Origin: Antedon mediterranea
Taxonomy: Eukaryota > Echinodermata > Crinoidea > Comatulida > Antedonidae
Length of the DNA stretch: 64,000 nt
NCBI RefSeq assembly: GCF_964355755.1
Contig: NC_092677.1
Span: 24,336,101-24,400,100, forward strand
Direction: 5' to 3'
The translations under genes were made by a program, and so were the position numbers. Position 1 is the stretch's first letter. The number at the start of each line of letters is the position of its first letter. Of this stretch, positions 8,051 to 63,409 are shown piece by piece. The notes under the pieces were generated by a model, which did not search any database, was not told where the DNA came from, and saw only the letters and a program-made list of their open reading frames with translations.

Positions 8051-8397
8051 GTGAGCGAGTGGCCGAGCTGTTAAGACAGTGGAATGGTAATCCATAGCCA
8101 TAACATCGACAAGGGTTCGAGGCTCACTCGCTCGATGGTTCTGGTGGTAGAACAAGTCTTCTCGGATAAGCATATTGCTTGTGTGCACTTTAAAGAACCT
8201 AGTACATCTTTTGAGACGAGTAGGGGGCTACCCCGGTGTACTAGTTCATACACACACTGTCGTGGACAGACGTAGTGGTGCCGTAGTTGCCTGCCGATGA
8301 CACAATGTGACCCTTAGGGGAGAAGAATGTTGTTGAAAAGGTGAAAAATCATCTGATCTTCATGAAATAGCGCTATATAAATGTTACATTACATGCA
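8051..8397 (+). mobile_element. tRNA-derived SINE, full length
   Basis: The head GAGCGAGTGGCCGAGCTG plus TTAAGACAG is tRNA Leu/Ser-like, with an A box (GTGGCCGAGC) and a B box (GGGTTCGAGGC) that form an internal pol III promoter. The body carries TTCTCGGATAAG, TTTAAAGAACCTAGTACATC and GGGGGCTACCCCGGTG. The tail ends with AATAGCGCTATATAAATG and ATTACAT repeats. Confidence 0.85.
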
Positions 8398-36016: not shown

Positions 36017-36017
36017 T

Positions 36018-37329
36018 GTGGAGCCGTGAAATGTGCAAAAAGTCACATTTGTGCAAACAACCACATTTGTGCAAACATTTTATCTTCAAATGTGCAAATC
36101 TGTAAAAATTCATAACCCACAAATGTGCAAACATCTCGCCGTTAAATGTAAAAACGATCAGTTTTGACGTTAGATGTGCAAAAGGTATTCTACAAATTAA
36201 TGTGCAAATCATTTCTTCAGTCAAACTTCTATTCCATTTTATATTTAGAGTATAATAAATTTAAAATTTTCAATATTATAATTATTCTTACAATAATGTT
36301 GATTATGATATAAGTCAAGAATGTTTGGTTTTTAATAATGAATTTTTAGTCTCTATCCCACCAAAGTACCGGGACACTATTTTAGACACTGAAGAATGAC
36401 CACTATGTCGTTGAAACGTTCCTTATAAAAGTCCTCTTATTGGAATGAACTGTGTCCATTAGATTTTCTACATTTCATGTAACATTTGTTTGTGTTATGC
36501 GAGGTTTGAACAATTTATGCAATTGAAAATTGGGTGGAATTCGTTGCAAAAATTGAAGCCAAATACTCGATTAAAATTTATCAGATTAAAAAATAGTGCA
36601 ATGTATTTTAGTATTTAATAAAACCAAAGTTAAGATAAACCTTTTAGTGTTAAATATAAAAATAATGCAAGTAACGCATTAAAAGAATAAAATGTTATTA
36701 AAATTGCGCAATTTAAAAATAAACAAGTTTGTTCAGATTCAAATTGCGAAATCTTTGCGCTATTTTGAATCGTGCATATATAACATTCACATTCATACTA
36801 ATATTCATCCCTATAACATGCGTACTTCGTTTTTATTATTTTTCTTCTGTTCATTAGACTGATTTTGTACCATTCATTTGCACTTTTTGCGTTTCATACT
36901 GTTAACGTGGCCTAGTTGGCATGAGGCCGAGTTGACTTTTGGCCGAATTGATGTGAGGACGAGTTGACTTGGGGTCGACTTGAATTTGGCTGAGACGGAT
37001 TAAAAGCCTTTAATCATAATAAAATACAACAGTATAATTAGTTATTATGATATTGAACATATTAGATTTATTAGAATCTTTTTCCTATTGTTATTTCTAT
37101 TCTGAAATACCACGAACCAAAAATATAAAATGTAATAGGAATTTGACTGAAGATATGATTTGCACATTTGTAGAATACCTTTTGCACATTTAACGTCAAA
37201 ACTGATCGTTTTTACATTTAACGGCGAGATGTTTGCACATTTGTGGGTTATGAATTTTTACAGATTTGCACATTTTAAGGTAAAATGTTTGCACAAATGT
37301 GACTTGTTGCACATTTCACGTCTCCACAG
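36018..37329. mobile_element. ~1.3-kb non-autonomous transposon with ~220-bp inverted repeats
   Basis: 36018-36240 and 37130-37329 are inverted copies. Each carries five or six dispersed (A)TTTGCACATTT(G) motifs, which look like subterminal transposase-binding repeats. The ends are GTGGAGCCGTGAAATGTGC and its near complement. The ~880-bp interior has no transposase; it includes GCCGAGTTGACTT-type direct repeats (36905-36990). Confidence 0.75.
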
Positions 37330-39934: not shown

Positions 39935-42900
39935 ATGTTCATCTTTAAAGACGTAAGAATACTAGTACTAGGCCTAGTAATAGTACTATTGCCATTCTGT
40001 CTCACAAATAAAGTCAAACCTGGTATGTATTAAATGCATTTAAAATTTAGAACTAAAGTGACTGCTTAAACATGAACTATCATCACTATCTAAGTAGGCC
40101 TGTGTCTGAATAATCATGGGCAATGTCAGATATTTTAGATACTATTATCTGTGGGACCGTCTTCTCACAGTAGGTTGGTGATCATGGACATTCATCTATT
40201 TCTGCATTCTTATAATAACTATATCTTTTGTTCATACTTTATGTTGGGTCATTTTTTTTTACTAATTAATACTGTACTGTGTAAAACATAGATGTTTCGG
40301 TTTTTGCCGATTGTTCTCAGGTTTTGTGAAATTGTCAAAACTTTATACGGATAAACCGCATCTCAAGGTATTCAATCTTGTTTCAAAGTGTTTTTCTGTT
40401 AGTGTTCAAATGTCCACGATACAACAGTATTGACAACACGTAACATTTTTTTTTAGTGTTTGGTTCTGTTAGTGTTAAAGTTTCCATCATACAACAGTGT
40501 TGAAAGCGCGTAGCATTTTGTTAGTGTTTGAATACACGATCAGGTTTTTGCATCGTGTTTGATTCTGTCAGTGTCCATGTTTCCACCATACAACAGTGTT
40601 GAATACATGATCAGGTTTTTGCATCGTTATTGGTTCTGTCAGTGTCCATGTTTCCACCATACAGCAGTGTAACATTAATCTGTATCCTGTGGTATGCAGC
40701 TGCAATAACGTATCACTGTGTGCGTGTATGGCGAAGTCTATACGTTACCGGAAACAGTCGAATTCCTTTGTTTTAAAGAAAATCTTATTTTGGAACTTAT
40801 TAAATTATTATTAACAAGGCCATAATATGCATGGATGCAGTCGCGTGCTCAAGTTAGTGTTTACCAACCAACCGACATAGCGAGTGACTCAAAAGCTAAG
40901 CATTAAACTATTGGGAACTCATGATACAATACATTCCAATTAATTGTTTATGATGCTTTCTGTTTTCTTTATTTTTAATTTTAAGGTTTTAACCATATTT
41001 TATGTTGAATATAAAATTTTAAGAGGATAATTATTAATAACAGTTTTGCAAATTTGCCATCTATGATTTATTCTAAAAGTTGTATTCATGTAAATATAAT
41101 GTTTGATTTACATACCTACTGTACAAAATAATTTTGGACTGATGTTTTTTTTTTATTGGTGAACATCGACGAATAGTTCTGTATATAGACTTCACAAACA
41201 ACATTTTCAGTTTATCCACAGGGTTGCTATGACCACATATATAGGCCTACTGGTGTAGTTTGTTCGCCATGGAACATGAATACAGTTGCAGAACTCATTA
41301 AGTATAATAAACAAAGCACCATATTAATATTGTAAGTATTGCAGTGTACGTACGGTTGCTTTTAAGTAAATACAGAATATACTTTGTTTATTTCTCAATG
41401 TAAAGGGTATTGCTAAACCGAAAACCTTCAAAAACATAGCAAACCCCATCGAACCAACATAAACAAGTAGAATTAATTTCGTCACTTTGACGAATTGTAG
41501 GTGATCATTGTGATAACAAAATATATTAAAATATGAGCGCAAAGCGTTGTAGTGCTGCTGAGTTGTGTATTGTGTAGTCTAGTCATAGAATATATAAAGT
41601 ATATAATATACACGGGTCCCATAGTATGTTCTAATGGCATGATGACGTTATCCAAATCAAAGAAAAAAAATTACAGAATTGTAAATCGTCCAAAATAGAC
41701 CATGATTTATTACTGAGATTTTTTCAAAAACACGGGTGAAATGGACTGATACTGCTAAGGGAGAGAAATGCCTAATAAAGTCTACTTTAGTTATAAAATA
41801 AGAAAAAAAAGCATTGTATTTTGTAATTATCACACTCTAGGCCCTTAACGTTTATTTTCTCTTCGTTTAGCAATTATTTACCGAGAAGCACAAAATGATG
41901 TATACAAGTGTTATTTTCAGAAATCTTAATAAATGTGATAATTTATTGTAAAGCGTTTACAACCAGCCTATATTTAAATTAAATTTCAATAATCTAAAAA
42001 CGGTTCATTGTTATATTTAGCAGCATAGTAGGCCTGTGGTGTAATGAATAAAACAAGAATACACACAATATGTATACATAGATATGTGTGCTTTTTTAAT
42101 GAAATCAAATCGTTCAATCAAATAACAGGAAATATTCAGGTGTTATATAGTATGGTATAATTAATACTATACCTATACCTATGAAGTTAATCATAATGTT
42201 ATTTACTGCACAATATACACATATTTAAAAAAAAATATGTTAAAACTAGCACATAAATATAGGTCATGCTTATTGTGTCATATTCTAAATTAAATTCGTC
42301 AATATTAAACTGTATGAAAGCAAACTTGTGCCTGAAACTGAAAAGGCTTTCCGTTGCAAAATGTAAATTAAATGGTAAGTTTAGCAATTATTTGCTAAGC
42401 ACAAAATGATGTATAAAAGTGTTATTGTCAGAAATATTAATAAAGATGATAATTCATTGCAAAGCATCCACATCAGTCTATATTTTATCATTTGAATAAT
42501 TAATAAAATGTTGATTGTCTTTAAATTGTTTAATGAATTATTTAGCAGCACAATATGGTATAATTAATAAAACTTTCATATTTCACAACTTTTAAGGGAA
42601 TTGCAAAACAATCAAATTATTGCATTGACAGAGAATGCATTCGCTGGTTTGAAATCATTGGAATGGCTGTAAGTGACATTGTTTATGTTTACATATCTAT
42701 GACGTTAATCATAATGTTATTTACTGCACAATATACAAATATTTACAAAACAATATGTTAAAGTAAACTTGAGCCTGAAACTGTAAAGGCTTTCCGTTGC
42801 AAAATGTAAATTAACTAGTAAGTTTAGCAATTATTTGCTGATATGCTCACAATGATGTATAAAAATGTTATTGTCAGAAATCTTAATAAAGGTGATATAT

Positions 42901-45900
42901 TCATTGCAAAGCATCGACATCAACCTATATTTATTAATTTGAATTAAAAATAAATGTTGATTGTCTTGTAATTGTTTAATGAATAATTTAGCAGCATAAT
43001 ATGGTATAATTAATAAAACGATATCTTTTACATTTTACAACTTTGAAGGAGGTTGGAGAACAATCAAATTAGTACATTGACAGAGAATGCATTCGCTGGT
43101 TTGGAATCATTGGAATGGCTGTAAGTGACGTTGTTTATGTTTACATACCTATGACGTTAATCCTAATGTTATTTACTGCACAATATACACATATTTAAAA
43201 ACAATATTTTAAAACTAGTACATATACATATAGGTCAATGCTTATTGTGTCATATTCAAAATGAAATTCCTCAATACTGTATGAAAGAAAACTTGAGCCT
43301 GAAACTGTAAAGGCTTTACGTTGCCAAAATGGTGAGTTTAACAATTATTTGCTGATAAGCACACAATGATGTATAAAAAGTGTTATTGTCAGAAATATTA
43401 ATAAATGTGATAATTCATTGCTAAAAATCCAAATCAGTCTATATTTATTCATTTGAATAATTAAAAAAGAATGTTGATTGTCTTTTAATTGTTTAATGAA
43501 TTATTTAGCAGTATAGTATGTAGTATCATGAATACAACTTTGTTTTATATTTCACAACTTTGAAGGTACTTGAAAAACAATCAAATTAGTACATTGACAG
43601 CCAATGCATTCGCCGGTTTGAAATCATTGGAAAGCCTGTAGGTGACGTTGTTTATGTTTACCTATGACGTTAATAAAAATGTTATTTACTCCACAATATA
43701 CACATATTTTATACACAATGGAGAGTTTAGCAATTATTTTCTGTTGTGTTATTGTCAGAAATCTTAATAAAGGTGATAATTCATTGCAAAAAATCCATAT
43801 CAGTCTATATTTAATTTATATTTCAATAATCTAAAAATGGTTCATTGTTATATTTAATAAGTATTTAGCAGCATAGTAGGCCTGTGGTGTAATGAATAAA
43901 ACAACAATACATACAATATGTATACATAAATATATGATGTGTGCTTTTTTAATGAAATCAAATCATTCAATCAAATAACAGGAAATATTCAGGTGTTATT
44001 GGTATAATTAATAAAAACTATCTTTTACATTTCATAATTTTGAAGGTGGTTGTTCAACAATCAAATTAGTACATTGGCAGAGAATGCATTTGCTGGTTTG
44101 GAATCATTGGAAAGGCTGTAAGTGTTATTCTTCATCATATCCACATACGTACTTTCATATATATCATGTTTTATACACATTCAAGCTAGGGGGCATATAC
44201 ACATTCAAGCTAGGGGGCCTACACACATTGTACACACATCGTAACCTTATTAGGTGAAATACTTTTGTCGAAATGGATTATTTTCATAGTAATTCATTGT
44301 TAGAAAGAGTAAATCAAACTTAGTATTTTATTAGTTTGTTACCAAACTAGTTAACAAATGTAACATTAGAGGAATATTTAGCAGTGTATAGCATATGAAT
44401 CAAATTTAAGTAAGTAAGCTATAAGATTTAATAAGAAATTGTTAATTTTATTCGTATTTATTCATTCATTTCGACACACACTAGCCCTGGTATTTATTCT
44501 TACAAAGTTATTACAATTTAATCTCACTCTTATTTGCTGTGACGAAATAACTCTCCTCATATACACACCTATTTAAAAACAATATTTTAAAACTAGTACA
44601 TAAATATAGGCCAATTAAATTGTGTCATATTCAAAATAAAATTCCTCAACTGTATAGCAAATTTGAGCCTGAAACTGTAAAGGCTTTATGAAAATAAGTA
44701 AATAGCCTTTACATACCCTATTTTAAATTCTAAAAAGTCTGAAAAAATCTTCAAGTGCAGTCGTGATCGATTAGTGTATTTGGTAAACTGTATCAAGTGA
44801 ATTTGTGCCTGAAACTGACAAGGCTTTCCGTTGTAAAATGTAAATTAAATTGTGAGTTTAGCAATTATTTGCTGGTATTCACACAATGTATTATTGCTAT
44901 ATTGTCAGAAATATTATTAGGTAAAGTTAATTTATGGCCTATATTATTTTAATTAATCCAATAATCTAAAAATCAGTCATTGTCTTCAATTGAATATTTG
45001 GCTAAAACTATATCTTTTACATTTAACAACTTTTAAGGGGTTTGCACTACAATCAAATTAGTACATTGACAGCCAATACATTCGCTGGTTTGGAATCGTT
45101 GAAAGAACTGTAAGTGACATTGATTATGTTTACATACCTATGACGTTAATCCTAATGTTATTTACTCCACAATATACACATATTTAAAAAACAATATTTT
45201 TAAACTAGTACATAAATATATAGGCCAATGCTTATTGTGTCATATTCAAAATGAAATTCGTCAATATTAAACTGTATGAAAGCAAACTTGAGCCTGAAAC
45301 TGTAAAGGCTTTCCGTTGCAAAATGTAAATTAAATGGCGAGTTTAGCAATTATTTTCTGTTAATCACACAATGATGTATAAATGTGTTATTTTCAGAAAT
45401 CTTAATAAATGTGATAATTCATTGCAAAGCATCCACATCAGTCTATATTTATTTATTTTAATAACTAAAAAAATGTTGATTGTCTTTTAATTGTTTAATG
45501 AATTATTTAGCAGCACAATATGGTATAATTAATAAAACTGTCATATTTCACAACTTTTAAGGTGGTTACAAAGCAATCAAATTAGAACATTGACAGAGAA
45601 TACATTCGCTGGTTTGGAATCATTGGAAGGACTGTAAGTGACATTGATTATGTTTACATACCTATGACGTTAATCCTAATGTTATTTACTCCACAATATA
45701 CACATATTTAAAAAACAATATTTTTAAACTAGTACATAAATATATAGGCCAATTCTTATTGTGTCCTATTCAAAATGAAATTCCTCAATATTAAACTGTA
45801 TGAAAGCAAACTTGAGCCTGAAACTGTAAAGGCTTTCCGTTGCAAAATGTAAAATAAATGGCGAGTTTAGCAATTATTTTCTGTTAATCACACAATGATG

Positions 45901-48900
45901 TATACATGTGTTATTGTCAGAAATCTTAATAAATGTGATAATTCATTGCAAAAAATCCACATCAGTCTATATTTAATTTATATTTCAATAATCTAAAAAT
46001 GGTTCATTGTTATATTTAATAAGTATTTAGCAGCATAGTAGGCCTGTGGTGTAATGAATAAAACAACAATACATACAATATGTGATGTAAGATATATGAT
46101 GTGTGCTTTTTTAATGAAATCAAATCGTTCAATCAAATAACAGGAAATATTCAGGTGTTATATAGTATGGTATAATTAATAAAACTATCTTTTACATTTC
46201 ATAATTATGAAGGTGGTTGTACAGCAATCAAATTAGTACATTGACAGCCAATGCATTCGCTGGTTTGGAATCATTGAAATACCTGTAAGTGACGTTGTTT
46301 ATGTTTACCTATGACGTTAATTATAATGTTATTTACTGCACAATATATACATATTTAAAAACAATAGTTTAAAACTAGTACATACAAATAGGCCAATGCT
46401 TATTGTGTCATATTCAAAATGAAATTCTCCTATATTAAACTGTATGAAAGCAAACTTGAGCATGAAACTGAAAAGGCTTTCCGTTACAAAATGTAAATTA
46501 AATTGTGAGTTTAGCAATTATTTGCTGATATGCTCACAATGATTGTATAAATGTGTTATTGTCAGAAATATTAATAAAGGTGATAATTGATTGCAAAGCA
46601 TTAACATCATCCTATATTTATTTATTTGAATAATTAAAAAAAATGTTGATTGTCTTTTAATTGTTTAATGAATTATTTAGCAGTATAATATGGTATAATT
46701 AATAAAACTTTCATATTTCACAACTTTGAAGGAGGTTGCAGTACAATCAAATTAGAACATTGACAGAGAATGCATTCGCTGGTTTGAAATCATTGGATAG
46801 TCTGTAAGTGACGTTGTTTATGTTTACATACGTATGACATTAATCCTAATGTTATTTACATATAAAAAATCCACATCAGTCTATATTTAATTTATATTTC
46901 AATAATCTAAAAATGGTTCATTGTTATATTTAATAAGTATTTAGCAGCATAGTAGGCCTGTGGTGTAATGAATAAAACAACAATACACACAATATGTATA
47001 CATAGATATATGGTGTGTGCTTTTTTAATGAAGTAAAATCATTCAATCAAATAACATGAAATATTCAGGTGTTATATAGTATGGTATAATTAATAAAAAC
47101 TATCTTTTACATTTCATAATTTTGAAGGTGGTTGCAAAACAATCAAATTAGTACATTGACAGAGAATGCATTTGCTGGTTTGGAATCATTGAAAGACCTG
47201 TAAGTGTTATTCTTCATCATATCCACATACGTACCTCCATACTGTATATCATGTTATATACACATTACACACATTGTACATATACATCGTAACCTTGGTT
47301 ACTTTTGTCAACATGGATTATTTTCATAATAATTCATTATTGAGTAAATCAAAATTATAGTATTTATTAGTTTGTTACCAATATTAGGAATATTTAGCAT
47401 TGTTATAGCCTGTGAATCAAATTTAAGTTAGTTAGCTATAAGATTTAAAAAGACATTTTTAATTTTATTCGTATTTATTCATTCATTTTGACACACCAGC
47501 CCTGGTTTTTATACTTACAAAGTTATTACAATTTAATCTCACTCTTATTTGTTGTGACGAAATACCTCTCCTCAAAGAATTGACCAATACATTAACTATT
47601 AGCTTAATTAAACAGGTATTTACAGGACAACAATATAACTACTATTGATCAAGGCGCCTTCTCTGTTTTTGCCTCATCACTTGGAAAACTGTAAGTAATT
47701 TATTCTGAAATTCATATGCAGTTTCTCGAAATAATTAATCACTTCAATTAGGTACTTTTCTTATGCTATAAACATGTTATCCAAGAAAAAACGGTATCAA
47801 CAGGATAGGTTTACATACATTTTTTAAACATGGGTAAATTTTTTCATTCATTATTGTATCTGGCTCATTCCATGGAGTTGAACATGAGAAAGCATTTTAA
47901 AAGTTAATCTAACAAGTAGAACAAACAACTTTTTATATAATTAAACATATAAGTAGAAGGATTATCTTAAGTGCCGACGGTGATAAAAATATTATTTTGA
48001 GACTACATTGCATCAGTTAGACACTAAATTGATTGTGGTATACCTTCATTAATACGATATCACTAAAACGACATCGGTGCTATCCAAATGAGACATACTC
48101 GTAGATATTTAGTTACATGTGAGCTACACTCATTGGCACTGATTTGATATTTGTTTCCATATTTATTTTTTTTTACAGAGACATCAGACGCAACAATTTA
48201 CAAGTTTACAGAGAAAGTACTTTTGAAGAATTGAAATATATAACAGAATTGTAAGTATTATGTCGGATTTAGAAATTCTTTATATTCATTAAATGATATT
48301 TTTATTTTGTTTTAACACAGTTACCAATTCCACATGCATGCCGACAGTGGCCCAACAAAATTGTTTATGTAGGCCTACAGCTTTTAGGTTATTTTAAATT
48401 TCTCCTTCACTTCTATCTTTTAAATTGGTCGTACACGTCATACTTTTACTATACGAGTAGATTTGATTGGCTGTAAAGCAGTCGTTATTCCACCTGTTAT
48501 AGAACTAAAACCATTATAAACATTGTTATAGTAGGCTACTACTGTATTTAACAACTTCCATTAAATTCAATTGTTTTTTTAACATAGATATTCAGATTTG
48601 TTTCGTCTCTGTTGTGTTGTTGGAGAAATTGAAGTATGTGAGCCTACTGATGCTTTTGCGTCCTGCGCTGACTTACTAAAGAGAGAAGTTCTTAGGATAT
48701 TGATGATAGTTATTGGACTGTCATCTTTTATCGGTAACTTGATTGTCATCATATCGCGAAGGATAAACAAAGAAAATAGGTCTACAGTTGATTCTATTCT
48801 ACTCACTAATCTTGCCGCGGCTGACTTGCTGATGGCAATTTATTTGCTGATCATCGCAGGTGCAGATATACACTACAGAGGAAGGTACGCGAAGGTTGCC

Positions 48901-49572
48901 AGCGAATGGAAAAACAGCTTTCTCTGCTCTTTTTCCGGTGCTATTTCAACACTGTCTGGGCAGTGTTCCGTGTCAACCTTGATGGTTATGAGTATTAACC
49001 GTGCTATAAACATCGTCTATCCATTCAGCACCAAACGGCTCAAACGTACGAAATGCAAAATTATCATCGGTATTGCTTGGCTGGTATGGCTTTTTGTTAG
49101 TTTCCTTCCACTGGTAGCTAACAAGTCACATGTCGGCATACCATATTTTGGCGAGAACTACTACGGAAAACAAAGTGTGTGTCTCGCGTTGCCACTAACA
49201 CGACATCGATTACCAGGCTGGGAGTACGCCACGGCCATATTCATCGCATTCAATGGCTTGGGTTTTTTTGTTATCACAGCAAGTTATTTGACGATTTTCC
49301 TCTCCGTTAAGAGATCTGCAATCACGGCTAACAGAATGCAGAGACGAGAAGAGGAAATCAAAATGGCCGTGAAACTAGGGTTTATTGTTTTCACCGATTT
49401 CTGTTGCTGGTTTCCCATCATAGTAATGGGAATTTGTTCAGAGATGGAGTGGTGGAGAATTCCTGATGATATATACGTTTGGGCAGCAACATTTATAATT
49501 CCCATTAACTCATCAGTAAACCCATATCTTTACACAATTATTTATATGTGTAAAAGCGAGCGTAGGCCATAA
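39935..49572 (+). CDS. LRR-containing class A GPCR, copy A (662 aa, reconstructed)
   Basis: Exons: 39935-40022 (signal peptide, hydrophobic core LVLGLVIVLLPFCL), 41211-41331 (cap with YPQGCYDHIY and two Cys), nine 72-bp LRR exons (42597, 43049, 43566, 44046, 45038, 45562, 46213, 46732, 47128), 47616-47690 and 48179-48250 (two more LRRs), 48588-49572 (hinge and 7TM). All borders are GT-AG and phases match. LRRs span ~70-334. The hinge has RLCC...C...SCADLL as in glycoprotein/relaxin-type LGRs. TM1 has GN, TM2 LAAAD, TM6 CCWFP, TM7 NSSVNPYLY. The DRY box is replaced by INRAI before VYPF, and only ~9 residues follow TM7. No LDLa module is seen, unlike relaxin receptors. It is presumably a plasma-membrane receptor; ligand unknown. 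GRL101-like or type C LGR kinship is inferred from the hinge and VYPF. Confidence 0.85.
40390..40675 (+). repeat. Tandem repeat in receptor A intron 1
   Basis: Imperfect units of about 65-110 bp built around GTTCTGT(T/C)AGTGT, TTTCCA(T/C)CATACAACAGTG and TTGAATACA(C/T)GATCAGG. It occurs at the corresponding place in copy B (53370-53656), slightly different in sequence. Confidence 0.75.
42139..42190 (+). pseudogene. Site of a deleted LRR exon in receptor A
   Basis: The intron signature that precedes an LRR exon (GTGTTATATAGTATGGTATA, ATTAATA) joins directly to the signature that normally follows one (CCTATGAAGTTAATCATAATG). In copy B, 55132-55300 has an intact exon (55189-55260) between the same landmarks. 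The loss is ~150 bp and clean, so the flanking exons still splice in phase. Confidence 0.7.
42597..47199 (+). repeat. Tandem array of nine LRR exons, copy A
   Basis: Each unit is one 72-bp exon, a near-invariant 3' flank (GTAAGTGACGTTG), an AT-rich intron with shared landmarks (AATTCATTGCAAAGCATC, GTTTAATGAATTATTTAGCAG) and an acceptor ending (T/G)AAG. Exon-start spacings range from 396 to 992 bp. The intron 43 kb-44 kb and 44.1-45.0 kb units carry extra sequence. Repeat pattern: LxLxxNQI(S/R)TLT, (A/E)N(A/T)FAGL(E/K)SLxx. Confidence 0.9.
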
Positions 49573-49756
49573 AGCTGACATTCCTCGTGCATTCTCAGTT
49601 TATTTATTTACTACATTTATTTATTCAATTTTGATTCACAAGGGTAGCTCTAACAGGTGTACGAGTACAGCTGTCTTGAATAGGCCCTTTTAAAAACATT
49701 ATACAATTATACAAAAAGACATTCAAACATCAAATTACAAGTAGATCCATAAAGCC

Positions 49757-49870
49757 TGTTCCTGTCGATCGTTAAGTTGCGTTGAGTTGCGCTAAGTTGC
49801 GTTGACATATTCAACGATTTGACAGGAAAAGGGGGTAAAAAATCAACGTTACAAATCGTTAAAGTCTGAA
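49757..49870 (+). repeat. MITE terminus (CCTGT..CAACG family) 3' of receptor A
   Basis: AAGCCTGTTCCTGTCGATCG, GTTGCGTTGAGTTGCGC and TTCAACGATTTGACAGG correspond to the left end of the element at 8669. The identical segment occurs at 63592-63705 behind copy B. Confidence 0.6.
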
Positions 49871-50194
49871 ATCATAAAATTACAAGTAGATTCATAAAGT
49901 TAAAATTCAGGTTTTTAAGAAGTTAAAACATTACAAGTTAAAATATTAAAATTTACGGAGTAATTTATTTTTGCAAACTACTCCATCAAGAAACTAAAAG
50001 AAAATTAATACATTTGAGTTTTGAACTCTGCACTTTTATTTTTTACTTGTTATTCTTGATTCTAGTGTTTTTATCAGATATTATTTGGAGTTTGTATTGG
50101 GTACACTGTGACGGGTACAAGTAGTACCATTAGGGTGTGTTCCATGTATATATAGGAATTATAGGTGTAAAGGAATTATAGATATATTTATTTC

Positions 50195-50200
50195 AATAAA
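50195..50200 (+). terminator. Candidate poly(A) signal of receptor A
   Basis: First AATAAA after the stop codon, about 620 nt downstream. The equivalent in copy B would lie just beyond the window. Confidence 0.35.
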
Positions 50201-51005
50201 CACCATTGCAACAACAAAAAAACAAAAACAAAAAACATTATGTTTAAATTTTGTTTTTTGAGCTACATTGTTTGTCTGTTGATAAGTGTGTAGTTTAGAA
50301 AGATTAGGTTGGTTGATTGTAAAGTATAGTAAATTATCAAATTGATTTATTACAAAATAAATATTATATTTGTTATCTTTGTGAATATTTTGTATATAAA
50401 GATACATTTGAATAATTAGTTTCATTATTTATTTAATTTGTTAAGATATTGAGTGTATCTGACAAAGGACAAACAAAAAGATTTAGTATAGATTGAGATG
50501 TGCACAAACTCGGCTAGTAAGATTTACTATCAGTCTTGTGTTTTGTCTTTTAACTTTGTAACTGTGTGTTTGTCTGTATTCAATTCATCCTATGTACGTT
50601 TAATTATTCACGTTTTTATTCAAACTTTGCATTTAGATCAACAAAATACTTTCTTTATTATCTGTAATAAACAGCTATATACTCAGTCGGAATACTAATA
50701 AATATTAGATGGAAAAGAATTATTGTATCTTTATAATTATTTGGTTCCTACATTGGTTTAAACTTAATGAGATACAACTGAATATTGGAAGCAATATATC
50801 GTCAATTAATAGATGATCCTATAACATATGTTTTTTGTAATTTGTCGGATACCACTTTTTCATGGAGTTTACATAAATAATAATATTATCTGACTACATG
50901 TGTTTTTGTAATTTTGCAATTAGTGATAGTTAAATCCAATGAATAATTAAAATCACCAACGCGACCAATTTCCTAAGAAATTAGAAATGTATTTATTATT
51001 CTTAT

Positions 51006-51585
51006 TACACTGAAAAATATTGTTTAGATCTTAAACATCTATTTTGTACCAACTTTTTCATCTTTATTTTATTATTTATTTTATTTATTTTTATTTTATT
51101 CAGTTCACAACCAACAGCGATGAAACCGCCACTAACAGGTTGGATATAAACATAATAAACTATAATAATAAATTCAAAGAAGCAACAAAAACATAAACAA
51201 AGATTGGAACATTATAGCGTGTTTAAAACCTAAACGTGTTTATAGCTACATTTTGTTTTCCTCCACTCGTTTAGCAGTCAACATGTAACTATTATGTTCA
51301 GTCAACATGTTTAGGTACGTGTTTAGCGTTGCGTGCAGCGCATATGATTTTACTGTGGCGGAAAAAAAGCTCCACACATGAGCTCCACACGTGGCAAATT
51401 AATATTGCTTTATATTGCTCCACATGTTTAACAATAAGCACGTCACTGATGTGTTGAGTTGGATACAGACTGCATGTTTAGAACCTAAACATGTTCATAT
51501 CTAAACATGTTTAAGGCTAAATGTGTGGAAAACGTTGGTACAAATAGATGTTTAAGATCTAAACACTATTTTTACAGTGATAATA
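51006..51585. mobile_element. MITE upstream of receptor B, with insertion
   Basis: Same element as 38182-38614. Its better-preserved termini read TGTTTAGATCTTAAACATC at the left and GATGTTTAAGATCTAAACA at the right, and it holds the insertion at 51060-51215. Confidence 0.75.
51060..51215 (+). repeat. Insertion specific to unit B
   Basis: Absent from unit A at 38225. It carries a TTATTTTATTTATTTTTATTTT tract, then CCAACAGCGATGAAACCGCC, and shows similarity to 22430-22680. It inserted after the duplication, or was lost from A. Confidence 0.55.
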
Positions 51586-52922
51586 TGATTTTTGTTTGCT
51601 CGTCTGATTTCGCTGATGTCATCATCTGCCAGGGAGGAATATTTCTATTTGTACAAATAAAACAAGAACAAGAGACAAGAACTAACTGATTATGTTGTAT
51701 TCAGTGATATTTGAGAAAGTGTTGCCTAACTCAATGGTAATCCTAAACGAATGTGTCCATCATAGAAGGACATACACATGGCTGCGTACAGTCGCGTGCT
51801 CAAGTTAGTGTTTACCGACCAACCGACATAGTGAGCTGTAGAGTCGCGTTGCACGTGATTAAAAACCGAAGCGAAATTTTAATTTATGGGTGTCCTCGTG
51901 TTTTAAAAACTAATTTCTTTCCATTCATATCCAAACTTTCAACATACTAAAATGGTATTATCTAATTTATATTTAAATTGCACGTGGCCATAATTAACTC
52001 ACTCCTTTGTAGATTCATCCTCACACTAAGAGTTTTGTATTTTCAAATAACAGTGCAAAATCCACTCACCTAGGCCTACAGATTCATTATATTCCCAAAA
52101 GTTTCTATTCTCAATTTAATTCCTAGAACTTACATTGCCTGATGCTCAACACTGCTTTGCTTTAAGTATAAATACTGATTTTGAATTCAGTATAAGAACT
52201 AGATTCATTTCAGCCACAACAAGCGGTTTTGTTCATATTTAATTCTGAGTAACAGACGGAGCTGATGCTTCAACCTCTTTGCGTAAAAAAAAAAAATTTC
52301 TGCAACCAGATACAAGAAACTTTATTTGTCTTCGTAAAAACAAAGGAATATCGGTTGTCAGGAAATCCCATTAAAAAGATACATATATATAAACGGACTA
52401 AAGAATCATAATTAGTTACTTAGACTAATACTTTTTTTGTATAGACAAATACTTTCTTTTTTATATATTAAATAACAAATATTATTTGTATTTAAAAAAC
52501 ATGAAAAATGAATAATAATTAAAAAAAAATACTTTTTTTAGATCTAATTTTTTGAAAAATTATTATGTGACATTAAAATGGCATATTAAAAAAAAATATT
52601 TAAAACATTATTTTTTCAGGGGGACAATAATCTTTATATTAAAAAAATTAGTTACAGCAGTAAAATACACTCTATACATGATGACGTGTGAAGCTCCACA
52701 AATCGAAATAATGGATTATCAAAAGAAAAACAATGTTCAATAATTAAATCATATTACACCCACAAACAATAATTGAATGCATCTGGTAATGTGATTTAAG
52801 TGATTGTCATCTTAAAAATGAATGAAGAAATCATAAAATAATAAGACCTATGCATTATACTAGAGAGCTTTTCACAAACTAACGGTTCATTTCTATTACC
52901 GATTTAATACGTATGTAAGAAG

Positions 52923-55900
52923 ATGTTCATCTTTAAAGACGCAAGAATACTAGTACTAGGCCTAGTACTAGAACTATTGCCATTCTGTCTCACAAATAAA
53001 GCCAGACCTGGTATGTATTAAATGCATTTAAAATTTAGAACTAAAGTGACTGCTTAAACATGAACTATCATCACTATCTAAGTAGGCCTGTGTCTGAATA
53101 ATCATGGGCAATGTCAGATATTTTAGATACTATTATCTGTTCTGGGACCGTCTTCTCACATCTATTTCTGCATTCTTATAATGTATATAATAATATTATA
53201 TAATATATATATAATGTTCATACTTTATGTTGGGTCATTTTTTTTACCAATTAATACTGTAACTGTGTAAAACATAGATGTTTCGGTTTTTGCCGATTGT
53301 TCTCAGGTTTTGTGAAATGTCAAAACTTTATACGGATAAACCGCATCTCAAGGGATTCAATCTTGTTTCAAAGTGTTTTTCTGTTAGTGTTCAAATGTCC
53401 ACGATACAACAGTATTGACAACACGTAACATTTTTTTTAGTGTTTGGTTCTGTTAGTGTTAAAGTTTCCATCATACAACAGTGTTGAAAGCGCGTAGCAT
53501 TTTGTTAGTGTTTGAATACACGATCAGGTTTTTGCATCGTGTTTGATTCTGTCAGTGTCCATGTTTCCACCATACAACAGTGTTGAATACACGATCAGGT
53601 TTTTGCATCGTGTTTGGTTCTGTCAGTGTCCATGTTTCCACCATACAGCAGTGTAACATTAATCTGTATCCTGTGGTATACAGCCGCAATAACGTATCAC
53701 TGTGTGCGTGTATGGCGAAGTCTATACGTTACCGGACACAGTCGAATTCCTTTGTTTTAAAGAAAATCTTATTTTGGAACTTATTAAATTATTATTAACA
53801 AGGCCATGTGCATGGCTGCTGTCGCTTGCTCAAGTTAGTGTTTACCAACCAACCGACCGACATAGTGAGCGCGTTGCACGCGACTCAAAAGCTAAGCATT
53901 AAACTATGGGGAACTCATGATACAATACATTCCAATTAATTGTTTATGATGCTTTCTGTTTTCTTTATTTTTAATTTTAAGGTTTTAACCATATTTTATG
54001 TTGAATATAAAATTTTAAGAGGATAATTATTAATAACAGTTTTGCAAATTTGCCATCTATGATTTATTCTAAAAGTTGTATTCATGTAAATATAATGTTT
54101 GATTTATACATACCTACTGTACAAAATAATTTTGGACTAATGTTTTTTTTTATTGGTGAACATCGACGAATAGTTCTGTATATAGACTTCACAAACAACA
54201 TTTTCAGTTTATCCACAGGGTTGCTTTGAACACATATATCCTGGTTTAGTTTGTTCGACATGGAACATGAATACAGTTGCAGAACTCATTAAGTATAATA
54301 AACAAAGCACCATATTATCATTGTAAGTATTGCAGTGTACGTACGGTTGCTTTTAAGTAAATACAGAACATACTTTGTTTATTTCTCAATGTAGAGGGTA
54401 TTGCTAAACCGAAAACCTTCACAAACATAGCAAACCCCATCGAACCAACATAAACAAGTAGAATTAATTTCGTCACTTTGACGAATTGTAGGTGATCATT
54501 GTGATAACAAAATATATTAAAATATGAGCGCAAAGCGTTGTAGTGCTGCTGAGTTGTGCCTATTGTGTAGTCTAGTCATAGAATATATAACGTATATAAT
54601 ATACACGGGTCCCATATATGTTCTAATGGCATGATGACGTTATCCAAATCAAAGAAAAAAAATTACAGAATTGTAAATCGTCCAAAATAGACCGTGATTT
54701 ATTACTGAGATTTTTTCAAAAACACGGGTGAAATGGACTGATACTGCTAAGGGAGAGAAATGCCTAATAAAGTCTACTTTAGTTATAAAATAAGAAAAAA
54801 AGCATTGTATTTTGTAATTCTCACACTCTAGGCCCTTAACGTTTATTTTCTCTTCGTTTAGCAATTATTTACCGAGAAGCACAAAATGATGTATACAAGT
54901 GTTATTTTCAGAAATCTTAATAAATGTGATAATTTATTGTAAAGCGTTTACAACCAGCCTATATTTAAATTAAATTTCAAAAATCTAAAAACGGTTCATT
55001 GTTATATTTAGCAGCATAGTAGGCCTGTGGTGTAATGAATAAAACAACAATACACACAATATGTATACATAGATATGTGTGCTTTTTTAATGAAATCAAA
55101 TCGTTCAATCAAATAACAGGAAATATTCAGGTGTTATATAGTATGGTATAATTAATAAAACTATCTTTTACATTTCATAATTATGAAGGTGGTTGTACAG
55201 CAATCAAATTAGTACATTGACAGCCAATGCATTCGCTGGTTTGGAATCATTGAAATACCTGTAAGTGACGTTGTTTATGTTTACCTATGACGTTAATTAT
55301 AATGTTATTTACTGCACAATATATACATATTTAAAAACAATAGTTTAAAACTAGTACATACAAATAGGCCAATGCTTATTGTGTCATATTCAAAATGAAA
55401 TTGTCCTATATTAAACTGTATGAAAGCAAACTTGAGCCTGAAACTGTAAAGGCTTTCCGTTGCAAAATGTAAATTAAATGGCGAGTTTAGCAATTATTTT
55501 CTGTTAATCACACAATGATGTATAAATGTGTTATTTTCAGAAATCTTAATAAAGGTGATAATTCATTGCAAAAAATCCACATCAGTCTATATTTATTCAT
55601 TTTAATAATTAAAAAAATGTTGAATGTATTTTAATTGTTTAATGAATTATTTAGCAGTATAATATGGTATAATTAATAAAACTGTCATATTTCACAACTT
55701 TTAAGGTGGTTGCAAGGCAATCAAATTAGTACATTGACAGCCAATACATTCGCTGGTTTGGAATCATTGGAAGAACTGTAAGTGACATTGATTATGTTTA
55801 CATACCTATGACGTTAACCGTAATGTTATTTACTGCACAATATACACACATTTAAAAACATTATTTTAAAACTAGTACATAAATATAGGCCAATGCTTAT

Positions 55901-58900
55901 TGTGTCATTATTCAAAATGAAATTCGTCAATATTAAACTGTATAAAAGCAAACTTGAGCCTGAAACTGTAAAGGCTTTCCGTTTCAAAATGTAAATTAAA
56001 TGGTGAGTTTAGCAATTATTTTCTGTTAATCACACAATGATGTATAAATGTGTTATTGTCAGAAATCTCAATAAATTAATTCATTGCAAAAAATCCACAT
56101 CAGTCTATATTTATTCATTTTAATAATTAAAAAAATGTTGAATGTATTTTAATTGTTTAATGAATTATTTAGCAGTATAATATGGTATAATTAATAAAAC
56201 TGTCATATTTCACAACTTTTAAGGTGGTTGCAAGGCAATCAAATTAGTACATTGACAGCCAATACATTCGCTGGTTTGGAATCATTGGAAGAACTGTAAG
56301 TGACATTGATTATGTTTACATACCTATGACGTTAACCGTAATGTTATTTACTGCACAATATACACACATTTAAAAACATTATTTTAAAACTAGTACATAA
56401 ATATAGGCCAATGCTTATTGTGTCATTATTCAAAATGAAATTCGTCAATATTAAACTGTATAAAAGCAAACTTGAGCCTGAAACTGTAAAGGCTTTCCGT
56501 TTCAAAATGTAAATTAAATGGTGAGTTTAGCAATTATTTTCTGTTAATCACACAATGATGTATAAATGTGTTATTGTCAGAAATCTCAATAAATTAATTC
56601 ATTGCAAAAAATCCACATCAGTCTATATTTAATTTATATTTCAATATTCTAAAAATGGTTCATTGTTATATTTAATAAGTATTTAGCAGCATAGTAGGCC
56701 TGTGGTGTAATGAATAAAACAACAATACATACAATATGTGATGTAAGATATATGATGTGTGCTTTTTTAATGAAATCAAATCGTTCAATCAAATAACATG
56801 AACTTTTCAGGTGTTATATAGTATGGTATAATTAATAAAAACTATCTTTTACATTTCATAATTTTGAAGGCAGTTGTACAACAATCAAATTAGTACATTG
56901 ACAGCCAATGCATTTGCTGGTTTGGAATCATTGAAAGAACTGTAAGTGTTATTCTTCATCACATCCACATACGTATTTCCATATATATCATGTTTTATAC
57001 ACATTACACATATTTAAAACTAGTACATAAATATAGGACAATGCTTATTGTGTCATATTCTAAATTAAATTCCTCAATATTAAATTGTATGAAAGCAAAC
57101 TTGAGCCTGAAACTGTAAAGGCATTCCGTTGCAAAATGTAAATTAAATGGCGAGTTTAGCAATTATTTGCTGATATGCTCATAATGATTGTATAAATGTG
57201 TTATTGTCAGAAATCTTAATAAATGTGATAATTCATTGCAAAAAATCCACATCAGTCTATATTTAATTTATATTTCAATAATCTAAAAATGGTTTATTGT
57301 TATATTAAATAAGTATTTAGCAGCATAGTAGGCCTGTGGTGTAATGAATAAAACAACAATACACACAATATGTATACATAGATATATGGTGTGTGCTTTT
57401 TTAATGAAATCAAATCGTTCAATCAAATAACATGAAATATTCAGGTGTTATATAGTATGGTATAATTAATAAAAACTATCTTTTACATTTCATAATTATG
57501 AAGGTGGTTGGAAAACAATCAAATTAGTACATTGACAGCCAATGCATTCGCTGGTTTGGAATCATTGAAATACCTGTAAGTGACGTTGTTTATGTTTACC
57601 TATGACGTTAATTATAATGTTATTTACTGCACAATATATACATATTTAAAAACAATAGTTTAAAACTAGTACATACAAATAGGCCAATGCTTATTGTGTC
57701 ATATTCAAAATGAAATTGTCCTATATTAAACTGTATGAAAGCAAACTTGAGCCTGAAACTGTAAAGGCTTTCCGTTGCAAAATGTAAATTAAATGGCGAG
57801 TTTAGCAATTATTTTCTGTTAATCACACAATGATGTATAAATGTGTTATTTTCAGAAATCTTAATAAAGGTGATAATTCATTGCAAAAAATCCACATCAG
57901 TCTATATTTATTCATTTTAATAATTAAAAAAATGTTGAATGTATTTTAATTGTTTAATGAATTATTTAGCAGTATAATATGGTATAATTAATAAAACTGT
58001 CATATTTCACAACTTTTAAGGTGGTTGCAAGGCAATCAAATTAGTACATTGACAGCCAATACATTCGCTGGTTTGGAATCATTGGAAGAACTGTAAGTGA
58101 CATTGATTATGTTTACATACCTATGACGTTAACCGTAATGTTATTTACTGCACAATATACACACATTTAAAAACATTATTTTAAAACTAGTACATAAATA
58201 TAGGCCAATGCTTATTGTGTCATTATTCAAAATGAAATTCGTCAATATTAAACTGTATAAAAGCAAACTTGAGCCTGAAACTGTAAAGGCTTTCCGTTTC
58301 AAAATGTAAATTAAATGGTGAGTTTAGCAATTATTTTCTGTTAATCACACAATGATGTATAAATGTGTTATTGTCAGAAATCTCAATAAATTAATTCATT
58401 GCAAAAAATCCACATCAGTCTATATTTATTCATTTTAATAATTAAAAAAATGTTGAATGTATTTTAATTGTTTAATGAATTATTTAGCAGTATAATATGG
58501 TATAATTAATAAAACTGTCATATTTCACAACTTTTAAGGTGGTTGCAAGGCAATCAAATTAGTACATTGACAGCCAATACATTCGCTGGTTTGGAATCAT
58601 TGGAAGAACTGTAAGTGACATTGATTATGTTTACATACCTATGACGTTAACCGTAATGTTATTTACTGCACAATATACACACATTTAAAAACATTATTTT
58701 AAAACTAGTACATAAATATAGGCCAATGCTTATTGTGTCATTATTCAAAATGAAATTCGTCAATATTAAACTGTATAAAAGCAAACTTGAGCCTGAAACT
58801 GTAAAGGCTTTCCGTTTCAAAATGTAAATTAAATGGTGAGTTTAGCAATTATTTTCTGTTAATCACACAATGATGTATAAATGTGTTATTGTCAGAAATC

Positions 58901-61900
58901 TCAATAAATTAATTCATTGCAAAAAATCCACATCAGTCTATATTTAATTTATATTTCAATATTCTAAAAATGGTTCATTGTTATATTTAATAAGTATTTA
59001 GCAGCATAGTAGGCCTGTGGTGTAATGAATAAAACAACAATACATACAATATGTGATGTAAGATATATGATGTGTGCTTTTTTAATGAAATCAAATCGTT
59101 CAATCAAATAACATGAACTTTTCAGGTGTTATATAGTATGGTATAATTAATAAAAACTATCTTTTACATTTCATAATTTTGAAGGCAGTTGTACAACAAT
59201 CAAATTAGTACATTGACAGCCAATGCATTTGCTGGTTTGGAATCATTGAAAGAACTGTAAGTGTTATTCTTCATCACATCCACATACGTATTTCCATATA
59301 TATCATGTTTTATACACATTACACATATTTAAAACTAGTACATAAATATAGGACAATGCTTATTGTGTCATATTCTAAATTAAATTCCTCAATATTAAAT
59401 TGTATGAAAGCAAACTTGAGCCTGAAACTGTAAAGGCATTCCGTTGCAAAATGTAAATTAAATGGCGAGTTTAGCAATTATTTGCTGATATGCTCATAAT
59501 GATTGTATAAATGTGTTATTGTCAGAAATCTTAATAAATGTGATAATTCATTGCAAAAAATCCACATCAGTCTATATTTAATTTATATTTCAATAATCTA
59601 AAAATGGTTTATTGTTATATTAAATAAGTATTTAGCAGCATAGTAGGCCTGTGGTGTAATGAATAAAACAACAATACACACAATATGTATACATAGATAT
59701 ATGGTGTGTGCTTTTTTAATGAAATCAAATCGTTCAATCAAATAACATGAAATATTCAGGTGTTATATAGTATGGTATAATTAATAAAAACTATCTTTTA
59801 CATTTCATAATTATGAAGGTGGTTGGAAAACAATCAAATTAGTACATTGACAGCCAATGCATTCGCTGGTTTGGAATCATTGAAATACCTGTAAGTGACG
59901 TTGTTTATGTTTACCTATGACGTTAATTATAATGTTATTTACTGCACAATATATACATATTTAAAAACAATAGTTTAAAACTAGTACATACAAATAGGCC
60001 AATGCTTATTGTGTCATATTCAAAATGAAATTCTCCTATATTAAACTGTATGAAAGCAAACTTGAGCATGAAAGTGAAAAGGCTTTCCGTTACAAAATGT
60101 AAATTAAATTGTGAGTTTAGCAATTATTTGCTGATATGCTCACAATGATTGTATAAATGTGTTATTGTCAGAAATCTTAATAAATGTGATAATTCATTGC
60201 AAAGCATCCACATCAGCCTATATTTATTCATTTTAATAATTAAAAAAATGTTGATTGTCTTTTAATTGTTTAATGAATTATTTAGCAGTATAATATGGTA
60301 TAATTAATCAAACTTTCATATTTCACAACTTTGAAGGGGGTTGTTCAACAATCAAATTAGAACATTGACAGAGAATGCATTCGCTGGTTTGGAATCATTG
60401 GAAATTCTGTAAGTGACGTTGATTATGTTTACAAACCTATAAAGTTAATCATAATGTTATTTACTCCACAATATACACAGATTAAAAAACAATATTTTTA
60501 AACTAGTACATAAATATATAGGCCAATGCTTATTGTGTCATATTCTAAATGAAATTCCTCAACATTAAACTGTATGAAAGCAAACTTGAGCCTGAAACTG
60601 TAAAGGCTTTCCGTTTCAAAATGTAAAATAAATTGTGAGTTTAGCAATTATTTTCTGTTAATCACACAATGATGTATAAATGTGTTATTTTCAGAAATCT
60701 TAATAAATGTGATAATTCATTGCAAAAAATCCACATCAGTCTATATTTAATTTATATTTCAATAATCTAAAAATGGTTCATTGTTATATTTAATAAGTAT
60801 TTAGCAGCATAGTAGGCCTGTGGTGTAATGAATAAAACAACAATACACACAAAATGTATACATAGATATATGGTGTGTGCTTTTTTAATGAAGTCAAATC
60901 ATTCAATCAAATAACATGAAATATTCAGGTGTTATATAGTATGGTATAATTATTAAAAACTATCTTTTACATTTCATAATTTTGAAGGTTGTTGCAAAAC
61001 AATCAAATTAGTACATTGACAGAGAATGCATTTGCTGGTTTGGAATCATTGAAAGACCTGTAAGTGTTATTCTTCATCATATCCACATACGTACCTCCAT
61101 ACTGTATATCATGTTATATACACATTACACACATTGTACATATACATCGTAACCTTATTTTGTTACTTTTGTCAACATGGATTATTTTCATAATAATTCA
61201 TTATTGAGTAAATCAAAATTATAGTATTTATTAGTTTGTTACCAATATTAGGAATATTTAGCCTGTGAATCAAATTTAAGTTAGTAAGCTATAAGATTTA
61301 AAAAGAAATTTTTAATTTTATTCGTATTTATTCATTCATTTTGACACACCAGCCCTGGTTTTTATTCTTACAAAGTTATTACAATTTAATCTCACTCTTA
61401 TTTGTTGTGACGAAATACCTCTCCTCATAGAATTGACCAATATACATTAACTATTAGCTTAATTAAACAGGTATTTACAGGACAACAATATAACTACTAT
61501 TGATCAAGGCGCCTTCTCTGTTTTTGCCTCATCACTTGGAAAACTGTAAGTAATTTATTCTGAAATTCATATGCAGTTTCTCGAAATAATTAATCACTTC
61601 AATTAGGTACTTTTCTTATGCTATAAACATGTTATCCAAGAAAAAGCGGTATCAACAGGATAGGTTTACATACATTTTTTAAACATGGGTAAATTTTTAC
61701 ATTCATTATTGTATCTGGCTCATTCCATGGAGTTGAACATGAGAAAACATTTTAAAAGTTAACAACTTTTTATATAATTAAACATATAAGTAGAAGGATT
61801 ATCTTAAGTGCCGACGGTGATAAAAATATTATTTTGAGACTACATTGAATCAGTTAGACACTAAATTGATTGTGGTATACCTTCATTAATACGATATCAC

Positions 61901-63409
61901 TAAAACGACATCGGTGCTATCCAAATGAGACATATTCGTAGATATTTAGTTACATGTGAGCTACACTCATTGACACTGATTTGATATTTGTTTCCATATT
62001 TTTTTTTTTTTTACAGAGACATCAGACGCAACAATTTACAAGTTTACAGAGAAAGTACTTTTGAAGAATTGAAATATATAACAGAATTGTAAGTATTATG
62101 TCGGATTTAGAAATTCTTTATATTCATTAAATGATATCTTTATTTTGTTTTAACACAGTTACCAATTCCACATGCATGCCGACAGTGGCCTAACAAATTG
62201 TTTATGTAGGCCTACAGCTTTTAGGTTATTTTAAATTTCTCCTTCACTTCTATCTTTTAAATTGGTCGTACACGTCATACTTTTACTATACGAGTAGATT
62301 TGATTGGCTGTAAAGCAGTTGTTATTCCACCTGTTATAGAACTAAAACCATTATAAACATTGTTATAGTAGGCTACTACTGTATTTAACAACTTCCATTA
62401 AATTCAATTGTTTTTTTAACATAGATATTCAGATTTGTTTCGTCTCTGTTGTGTTGTTGGAGAAATTGAAGTATGTGAGCCTACTGATGCTTTTGCGTCC
62501 TGCGCTGACTTACTAAAGAGAGAAGTTCTTAGGATATTGATGATAGTTATTGGACTGTCATCTTTTATCGGTAACTTGATTGTCATCATATCGCGAAGGA
62601 TAAACAAAGAAAATAGGTCTACAGTTGATTCTATTCTACTCACTAATCTTGCCGCGGCTGACTTGCTGATGGCAATTTATTTGCTGATCATCGCAGGTGC
62701 AGATATACACTACAGAGGAAGGTACGCGAAGGTTGCCAGCGAATGGAAAAACAGCTTTCTCTGCTCTTTTTCCGGTGCTATTTCAACACTGTCTGGGCAG
62801 TGTTCCGTGTCAACCTTGATGGTTATGAGTATTAACCGTGCTATAAACATCGTCTATCCATTCAGCACCAAACGGCTCAAAGGTACGAAATGCAAAATTA
62901 TCATCGGTATTGCTTGGCTGGTATGGCTTTTTATTAGTTTCCTTCCACTGGTAGCTAACAAGTCACAGGTCGGCATACCATATTTTGGCGAGAACTACTA
63001 CGGAAAACAAAGTGTGTGTCTCGCGTTGCCACTAACACGACATCGATTACCAGGCTGGGAGTACGCCACGGCCATATTCATCGCATTCAATGGCTTGGGT
63101 TTTTTTGTTATCGCAGCAAGTTATTTGACGATTTTCCTCTCCGTTAAGAGATCTGCAATCACGGCTAACAGAATGCAGAGACGAGAAGAGGAAATCAAAA
63201 TGGCCGTGAAACTAGGGTTTATTGTTTTCACCGATTTCTGTTGCTGGTTTCCCATCATAGTAATGGGAATTTGTTCAGAGATGGAGTGGTGGAGAATTCC
63301 TGATGATATATACGTTTGGGCAGCAACATTTATAATTCCCATTAACTCATCAGTAAACCCATATCTTTACACAATTATCTATATGTGTAAAAGCGAGCGT
63401 AGGCCATAA
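52923..63409 (+). CDS. LRR-containing class A GPCR, copy B (708 aa, reconstructed)
   Basis: Exons: 52923-53010 (signal peptide, LGLVLELLPFCL), 54208-54322 (cap, YPQGCFEHIYPG; two residues shorter than in A), eleven 72-bp LRR exons (55189, 55706, 56224, 56870, 57504, 58021, 58539, 59185, 59819, 60337, 60988), 61471-61545, 62017-62088, and 62425-63409 (hinge and 7TM). All phases match. The 7TM exon differs from copy A at four residues (R/G and V/I in the TM4 region, H/Q in extracellular loop 2, T/A in TM5). As in A the DRY box reads INRAI, CCWFP and NPYLY are intact and the C-tail is very short. The second intracellular-side Arg to Gly change follows TM3. Frames are open, so both copies look functional; expression is unknown. 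The ATG chosen opens the only hydrophobic leader upstream of the cap exon. Confidence 0.85.
53370..53656 (+). repeat. Tandem repeat in receptor B intron 1
   Basis: Counterpart of 40390-40675, with a slightly more regular pair of units around ACGATCAGGTTTTTGCATCG. Confidence 0.75.
55205..57519 (+). repeat. 2315-bp tandem duplication, copy 1 (approximate borders)
   Basis: Four LRR exons plus introns; every landmark recurs 2315 bp downstream, and I saw no difference in the parts compared by eye. The border lies near exon 55189-55260, whose start (TGTACAGC) differs from its counterpart at 57504 (GGAAAACA). Confidence 0.85.
57520..59834 (+). repeat. 2315-bp tandem duplication, copy 2 (approximate borders)
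   Basis: Second unit. Similarity to copy 1 continues past its nominal end to about 60030, where the sequence switches to the version that matches unit A (46440 region), marking the crossover zone. Confidence 0.85.

Follow-up and report, generated by a model that had tools for sequence, protein, structure and literature searches.

The window analysed here, 64,000 nucleotides of the crinoid Antedon mediterranea (C8:24336101-24400100), contains two genes, A and B, which are predicted to encode G protein-coupled receptors (GPCRs) with an ectodomain of leucine-rich repeats (LRRs) joined to a seven-transmembrane (7TM) domain. They are the first two members of an array of eight such genes, A to H, on contig C8. 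When closely related LRR exons of this array are compared, five codons that are predicted to face the concave side of the ectodomain carry about three to eight times more nonsynonymous differences than the neighbouring introns would lead one to expect, and the framework codons carry no such excess. Based on this comparison, the array is likely to belong to a germline family of recognition receptors on which both diversifying selection and the shuffling of modules have acted. The initial annotation of the window had suggested diversifying selection or selected shuffling in a GPCR ectodomain; this suggestion gains support from the concave excess over introns, from two further gene clusters on contig C7, and from block duplicates and mosaic introns within the array.

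Variable positions of the LRR exons

Twenty exons of 72 bp had been placed in two genes between positions 42597 and 61059 of the window, and all of them were located there, with AG/GT boundaries, phase 2 and an open frame without stops. Nine belong to gene A (42597..47199, plus strand, with starts at 42597, 43049, 43566, 44046, 45038, 45562, 46213, 46732 and 47128) and eleven to gene B (55189..61059, plus strand, with starts at 55189, 55706, 56224, 56870, 57504, 58021, 58539, 59185, 59819, 60337 and 60988). Only 14 of the 20 differ from each other in DNA sequence because gene B contains recent block duplicates. For comparison, the remainder of the array was retrieved beyond the window, and a scan with the framework pattern yielded 71 central LRR exons, each gene contributing between 5 and 12. 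Reading frame and splice dinucleotides are intact in 71 of 71, and the lowest-scoring exon matches 58 of 65 framework bases at a scan threshold of 42.

Among 23 ranked codons, residue entropy in genes A and B alone is highest at codons 23, 1, 3, 4 and 22. The same five lead across 51 distinct exons, across all 71 exons of the array and across the 40 distinct exons from the five intact genes; if all 23 codons had equal odds in the ranking, five named codons would come out on top with a chance of 1 in 33,649. With the junction leucine counted as residue 24, the repeat reads L21-x22-x23-L24-x1-L2-x3-x4-N5, and the five variable residues are the x positions of LxxLxLxxN, which are equated with the predicted concave LRR face in the available text of PMC3138743. 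As placed from this motif, the five variable codons would thus line the concave face of the ectodomain. The 24-residue register fits a gapless alignment, over 295 residues, of the gene G ectodomain with the solved LRR protein 7wrq. In plain composition across the 71 exons, W, N, Q, Y, E and S are frequent at codons 1, 3, 4 and 23.

A concave strand is composed of residues 22-23 of one exon and residues 1, 3 and 4 of the next, connected by the junction leucine. The per-exon residue lists of the initial annotation match the sequence, but its residue triplets do not correspond to a physical strand, since an intron splits each strand. For the same reason an exchange of exons creates new strand faces; the array has 63 faces formed where two central exons meet, and 48 of them are distinct. 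That the variation is centred on the concave positions was also borne out, whereas the description of all other residues as nearly fixed was slightly too strong, as codons 8, 12, 14 and 19 form a second, lower tier of variation.

The central modules of the array owe their number and their shuffled arrangement to unequal exchange and conversion, as is evident from block duplicates and mosaic introns. In gene B, a block of about 2.3 kb with several exons is repeated. In 62 of the 2485 module pairs of the array, the left introns differ by at most 3% and the right introns by at least 15%; the reverse pattern, with close right and distant left introns, occurs in 17. An exon can thus carry introns of different classes on its two sides, and the modules are mosaics.

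Nonsynonymous change measured against neighbouring introns

Introns flanking each exon, 250 bases per side, served as the yardstick of divergence for disjoint module pairs from the array. In 33 pairs with introns at most 6% apart, the intron divergence is 492/16192 = 0.030, and the proportion of nonsynonymous differences per nonsynonymous site (pN) at the concave codons is 106.2/435.2 = 0.244, about eight times the intron value (odds ratio 10.3, nominal Fisher p ~1e-58). In the framework of the same pairs, pN is 39.0/1381.0 = 0.028 and its synonymous counterpart, pS, is 19.0/401.0 = 0.047. The concave codons thus have a higher pN than even the pS of the framework (p 2e-16). In 19 closer pairs with introns at most 3% apart, concave pN is 0.104 against 0.013 in the introns, corresponding to an odds ratio of 8.5. 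The comparison of concave codons with framework and introns that the initial annotation had called for thus yields a concave nonsynonymous excess of roughly 3- to 8-fold, the lower figure deriving from the more stringent yardstick described below, and no excess in the framework. Two capping LRR exons, CT1 and CT2, have the same concave positions as the central exons. Here, concave pN is zero in all eight genes for CT1 and zero in the seven genes other than F for CT2; the value of 0.085 for CT2 over all eight genes is due to the loss of one base, and hence a frameshift, in gene F.

Outside the array, 19 divergent loci were retrieved from the genome, nine of which entered the statistics: two at C7:18.1 Mb, two at C7:5.7 Mb, four on C1 and one on C4. 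From these nine, eight exons starting past position 8200 of the oriented locus were dropped as the capping exon adjacent to the 7TM exon. The other ten loci, with 0 to 5 LRR exons of 72 bp each, stayed outside the statistics. The two C7 clusters have other frameworks (NQISNLPADIFHGLNNL and NQISTLPANVFDRLTALT), and their variable positions are largely the same. At C7:18.1 Mb (17 exons) the top five codons by entropy are the five concave codons, and at C7:5.7 Mb (16 exons) the top four are concave codons. With introns at most 10% apart, concave pN in the two clusters is 0.471 and 0.483 versus 0.062 and 0.050 in the introns (4 and 6 disjoint pairs, respectively).

Several observations weigh against an explanation by selection and are given here together. 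Since the pairs were picked for low intron distance, the intron yardstick is biased downwards. We therefore also chose pairs on one intron and measured divergence on the other. With the unused intron as yardstick, concave pN is 0.220 versus 0.077 (31 pairs; median intron 0.044; p 2e-18), and for the other side 0.291 versus 0.082 (35 pairs; median intron 0.043; p 6e-36), so that the excess drops to about 3-fold, yet is still strong. The Fisher p-values are nominal throughout, as they assume independent sites, an assumption that gene conversion violates. Path-counted pS at the concave codons is raised as well (0.056 in the 19 pairs, 0.163 in the 33 and 0.387 in the 2485), and the plain within-codon pN/pS at these positions is just about 1.1 to 1.9, which would fit a mutational hot spot. 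Among the other clusters, codon 22 is almost fixed at C7:5.7 Mb, and the single C4 gene has little contrast between positions. The cluster at C1:24.3 Mb has no excess at an intron distance of at most 0.10 (concave pN 0.015 versus intron 0.038; 5 pairs, p 0.52) and a weak one at a distance of at most 0.20 (8 pairs, p 0.014). As the motif scan requires part of the framework, framework conservation in the C7, C1 and C4 loci is partly built in, and the comparison of concave codons with introns alone is free of this bias. Finally, three of the eight array genes are broken: gene C by a stop inside the 7TM exon, gene D by a frameshift close to the end and gene F by the base lost in CT2. For gene F, an LRRNT-like exon, present in the other seven array genes, was sought and not found. 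Part of the diversity thus resides in copies that are probably non-functional. Genes A, B, E, G and H are intact, each with a complete exon series in the assembly.

The raised concave pS bears directly on an alternative in which the codon variation arises at the exon ends through local mutation or targeted conversion, without any selection. Each of the five codons is close to an exon boundary, at most 13 nt from the 5' end or at most 8 nt from the 3' end, and the adjacent codons 2, 5, 21 and 24 show 6.0 synonymous differences in 99 sites, about twice the intron rate, albeit over few sites. Moreover, at an intron divergence of about 3%, two or three bases differ in 31 of the 67 concave codons that have changed, as short templated exchange would produce. 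We attribute the elevated concave pS to these multi-base changes, which imply a contribution of either repeated substitution or short templated exchange. However, leucine 2, asparagine 5 and the junction leucine sit amid the variable codons and are almost always unchanged, and the codons of asparagine 5 and of the junction (the latter scored with a fixed third base) have no synonymous difference in the 33 pairs. Concave codons in which the residue is unchanged have one synonymous difference in 33.3 sites, which equals the intron rate and argues against a mutational hot spot. Single-base differences at concave codons are nonsynonymous in 36 cases and synonymous in one, where 4.9 synonymous ones would be expected (p 0.035). 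An exon-end process acting without selection thus appears quite unlikely as the driver of the variation.

Relaxed constraint or pseudogenisation, under which the exons would drift and gene conversion would make the framework look fixed, is in keeping with the three broken genes and with the evident conversion and shuffling. Drift of this kind cannot, however, raise nonsynonymous change at the concave sites 3 to 8 fold above that of neighbouring introns, and it is already contradicted by the intron control. Neither would it leave frame and splice sites intact in every one of the 71 exons, with at least 58 of 65 framework bases retained, nor a pN/pS of 0.47 in the 7TM exon (15 pairs among genes A, B, E, F, G and H). 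We regard this explanation as highly improbable. Selection on the concave codons, in combination with module shuffling, is the reading that we follow below.

Gene models and relation to known receptors

All features of genes A and B lie on the plus strand. Exon 1 of gene A (39935..40022) provides the start codon and, as judged by eye, a signal-peptide-like sequence; it has an open frame and a GT donor and joins in frame to exon 2. A signal-peptide-like exon 1 was found in all eight genes of the array. Exon 2 (41211..41331), with two cysteines, is named an LRRNT-like cap from its position and cysteine pattern; the spliced gene A model gave no Pfam match to LRRNT in this exon. Between the two cysteines, the LRRNT-like exons of genes A-E, G and H vary in both length and sequence, and the remainder of the exon is better conserved. 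The nine variable LRR exons are followed by the capping LRR exons CT1 (47616..47690, 75 bp) and CT2 (48179..48250, 72 bp), both near-invariant throughout the array, and by the last exon (48588..49572), which encodes the 7TM domain (7tm_1) and whose closest solved relative by sequence is relaxin receptor 1. The spliced frame is open over 662 residues and matches LRR_8 (5.1e-105) and 7tm_1 (1.1e-29) in Pfam; a search of NCBIfam returned a sub-threshold match at best. Gene B is organised in the same order, with a signal-peptide-like exon 1 (52923..53010, by eye), an LRRNT-like exon 2 (54208..54322), the eleven variable LRR exons, CT1 (61471..61545, 75 bp), CT2 (62017..62088, 72 bp) and a 7TM exon (62425..63409) whose protein is 98.8% identical to that of gene A. 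The upstream parts of the two genes are 91% identical over 4 kb and the 3' parts 98% over 3.3 kb. A minisatellite with a unit of about 70 bp lies in the first intron of each gene (40387-40670 and 53372-53654).

Elsewhere in the window, an inverted repeat (36017-36246 and 37121-37328), whose arms of 148, 48 and 43 nt are 92 to 95% complementary and lie about 0.9-1.2 kb apart, constitutes a foldback or transposon-like element. The open frames at 1466-1903 (145 aa) and 2197-2763 (188 aa) gave no match over the Pfam cut-off and are possibly parts of a mobile element.

The genome scanned comprises 354 Mb in 18 contigs. A search with the 7TM exon gave at least 95 matches at E <=1e-10, at least 67 of which are near full length (about 300 or more residues at an identity of at least 41%, counted by hand); both counts are lower bounds, with 122 of 262 candidates scored. 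Three of the 67 near-full-length matches contain a stop codon, and the matches scored fall on contigs C1 to C11 of the 18. At C9:16723979-16741302, 7TM matches are spaced about 5.1 kb apart, and the final one is fragmented and contains a stop. A separate region, C3:5547639-5659532, contains tandem LRR open frames; within it, C3:5624501-5634500 has two LRR-transmembrane frames, 368 and 379 aa long, together with a separate TIR-like frame of 203 aa (identified by eye), which suggests a Toll-like receptor cluster.

The gene A model unites an LRR ectodomain and a rhodopsin-class 7TM domain in one gene, and each LRR is encoded by its own exon, about 72 bp long and bounded by phase-2 introns, an arrangement typical of the genes for leucine-rich repeat-containing GPCRs (LGRs). 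Compared by sequence with solved structures, the 7TM domain is closest to RXFP1 (7tmw, 2.2e-48), with LHCGR at 1.7e-30. An LDLa domain was found neither in the spliced gene A model nor in the three forward frames between its exons 1 and 2; LDLa matches occur beside distant family members on C3 (locus L028), which have a 7TM identity of about 46%. As LDLa is a distinctive feature of type C LRR-GPCRs according to the available text of PMC11863921, we class gene A as LGR-like rather than as a type C LGR proper. The array receptors probably derive from type C LGRs. Like these (RXFP1/2, LGR3, LGR4, GRL101), they would join an LRR ectodomain to a rhodopsin-class 7TM domain, and unlike these they exist in dozens of copies, many in tandem, and have a hypervariable concave face, in addition to the lack of a detected LDLa in gene A. 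The same source, in its available part, reports that two starfish have two type C1 genes each.

Alternatively, the genes might be paralogous peptide-hormone receptors, each fitted to its own relaxin-like ligand and without a role in non-self recognition. The 7TM domain, closest to that of relaxin receptor 1, would agree with this, as would the action of starfish relaxin-like peptides on an RXFP/LGR3-type receptor, which is described in the accessible portion of PMC11863921. However, gene A yielded no LDLa, and a pairing of each receptor with a single ligand agrees poorly with 5-12 interchangeable modules, a recent tandem origin and ongoing change within the array. We therefore consider a set of hormone receptor paralogues unlikely and retain diversification for recognition as the preferred explanation.

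Variable LRR binding faces are known from the variable lymphocyte receptors (VLRs) and from plant NLRs, and VLRs combine a fixed scaffold with variable concave residues; LGRs, in turn, have been studied mainly as conserved hormone receptors. In the VLRs of lamprey and hagfish, it is the concave face of the LRR modules that binds antigen, as stated in the available text of PMC4731796, and the variable residues of the array occupy the corresponding positions as placed from the motif. In the germline, VLR genes are incomplete, and their assembly takes place somatically (PMC13428168, available part). In contrast, the genome assembly contains array genes A, B, E, G and H in complete form, each terminating in a 7TM domain. 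The parallel to VLRs drawn by the initial annotation hence holds for the way in which the binding face varies and does not extend to somatic assembly. A search for an AID/APOBEC-type deaminase (APOBEC_N) gave no match in the genome, and none in any control genome either.

Large, independently expanded groups of invertebrate GPCRs, which the present family resembles in this respect, include the surreal-GPCRs of sea urchins and the olfactory-like GPCRs of starfish (PMC7042368, in the part available). For these groups, no report of LRR concave-face diversification was found in the literature searched. Crab VLR2 is another LRR protein of an invertebrate that has been interpreted as a diversified recognition molecule, but its diversity is said to arise by alternative splicing of one gene, and the available text makes no mention of a 7TM domain (PMC10045472). 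The initial annotation knew of no such pattern in LGRs, and no report of concave-face diversification in LGRs was found in the literature searched, most subscription journals lying outside its reach.

Possible role of the receptor family

At the level of the gene models, the array would encode single-chain receptors consisting of a signal peptide, an LRRNT-like cap, 5 to 12 LRR modules, two capping LRRs and a 7TM domain similar to that of relaxin receptors. The LRR modules, 24 residues each and encoded by one phase-2 exon of 72 bp, would be exchangeable, and the central ones have been multiplied and shuffled as described above. Selection, as the intron-controlled comparison indicates, has probably altered time and again the five residues of each module that are predicted to face inwards and has held the scaffold. 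The outcome would be a germline repertoire whose receptors share their signalling output and differ in binding specificity. As all central array exons found are 72 bp long and of phase 2-2, alternative exon use could further enlarge the repertoire of each gene.

A signalling part that is held and a binding face that is diversified make it most likely that the receptors recognize varied or fast-changing macromolecular partners, for instance microbes or other non-self, or else external chemical cues. An immune role and an external chemosensory role fit the pattern equally well. A conserved peptide hormone is less likely as a ligand because it would favour a fixed face. It might be speculated, tentatively and with some doubt, that these genes represent a GPCR-based counterpart of the VLRs, that is, dozens of invertebrate receptors whose LRR concave faces are diversified for recognition of non-self or external cues. 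If this is true, a VLR-like variable face would be tied directly to G-protein signalling, and recognition and signalling would be united in one molecule.

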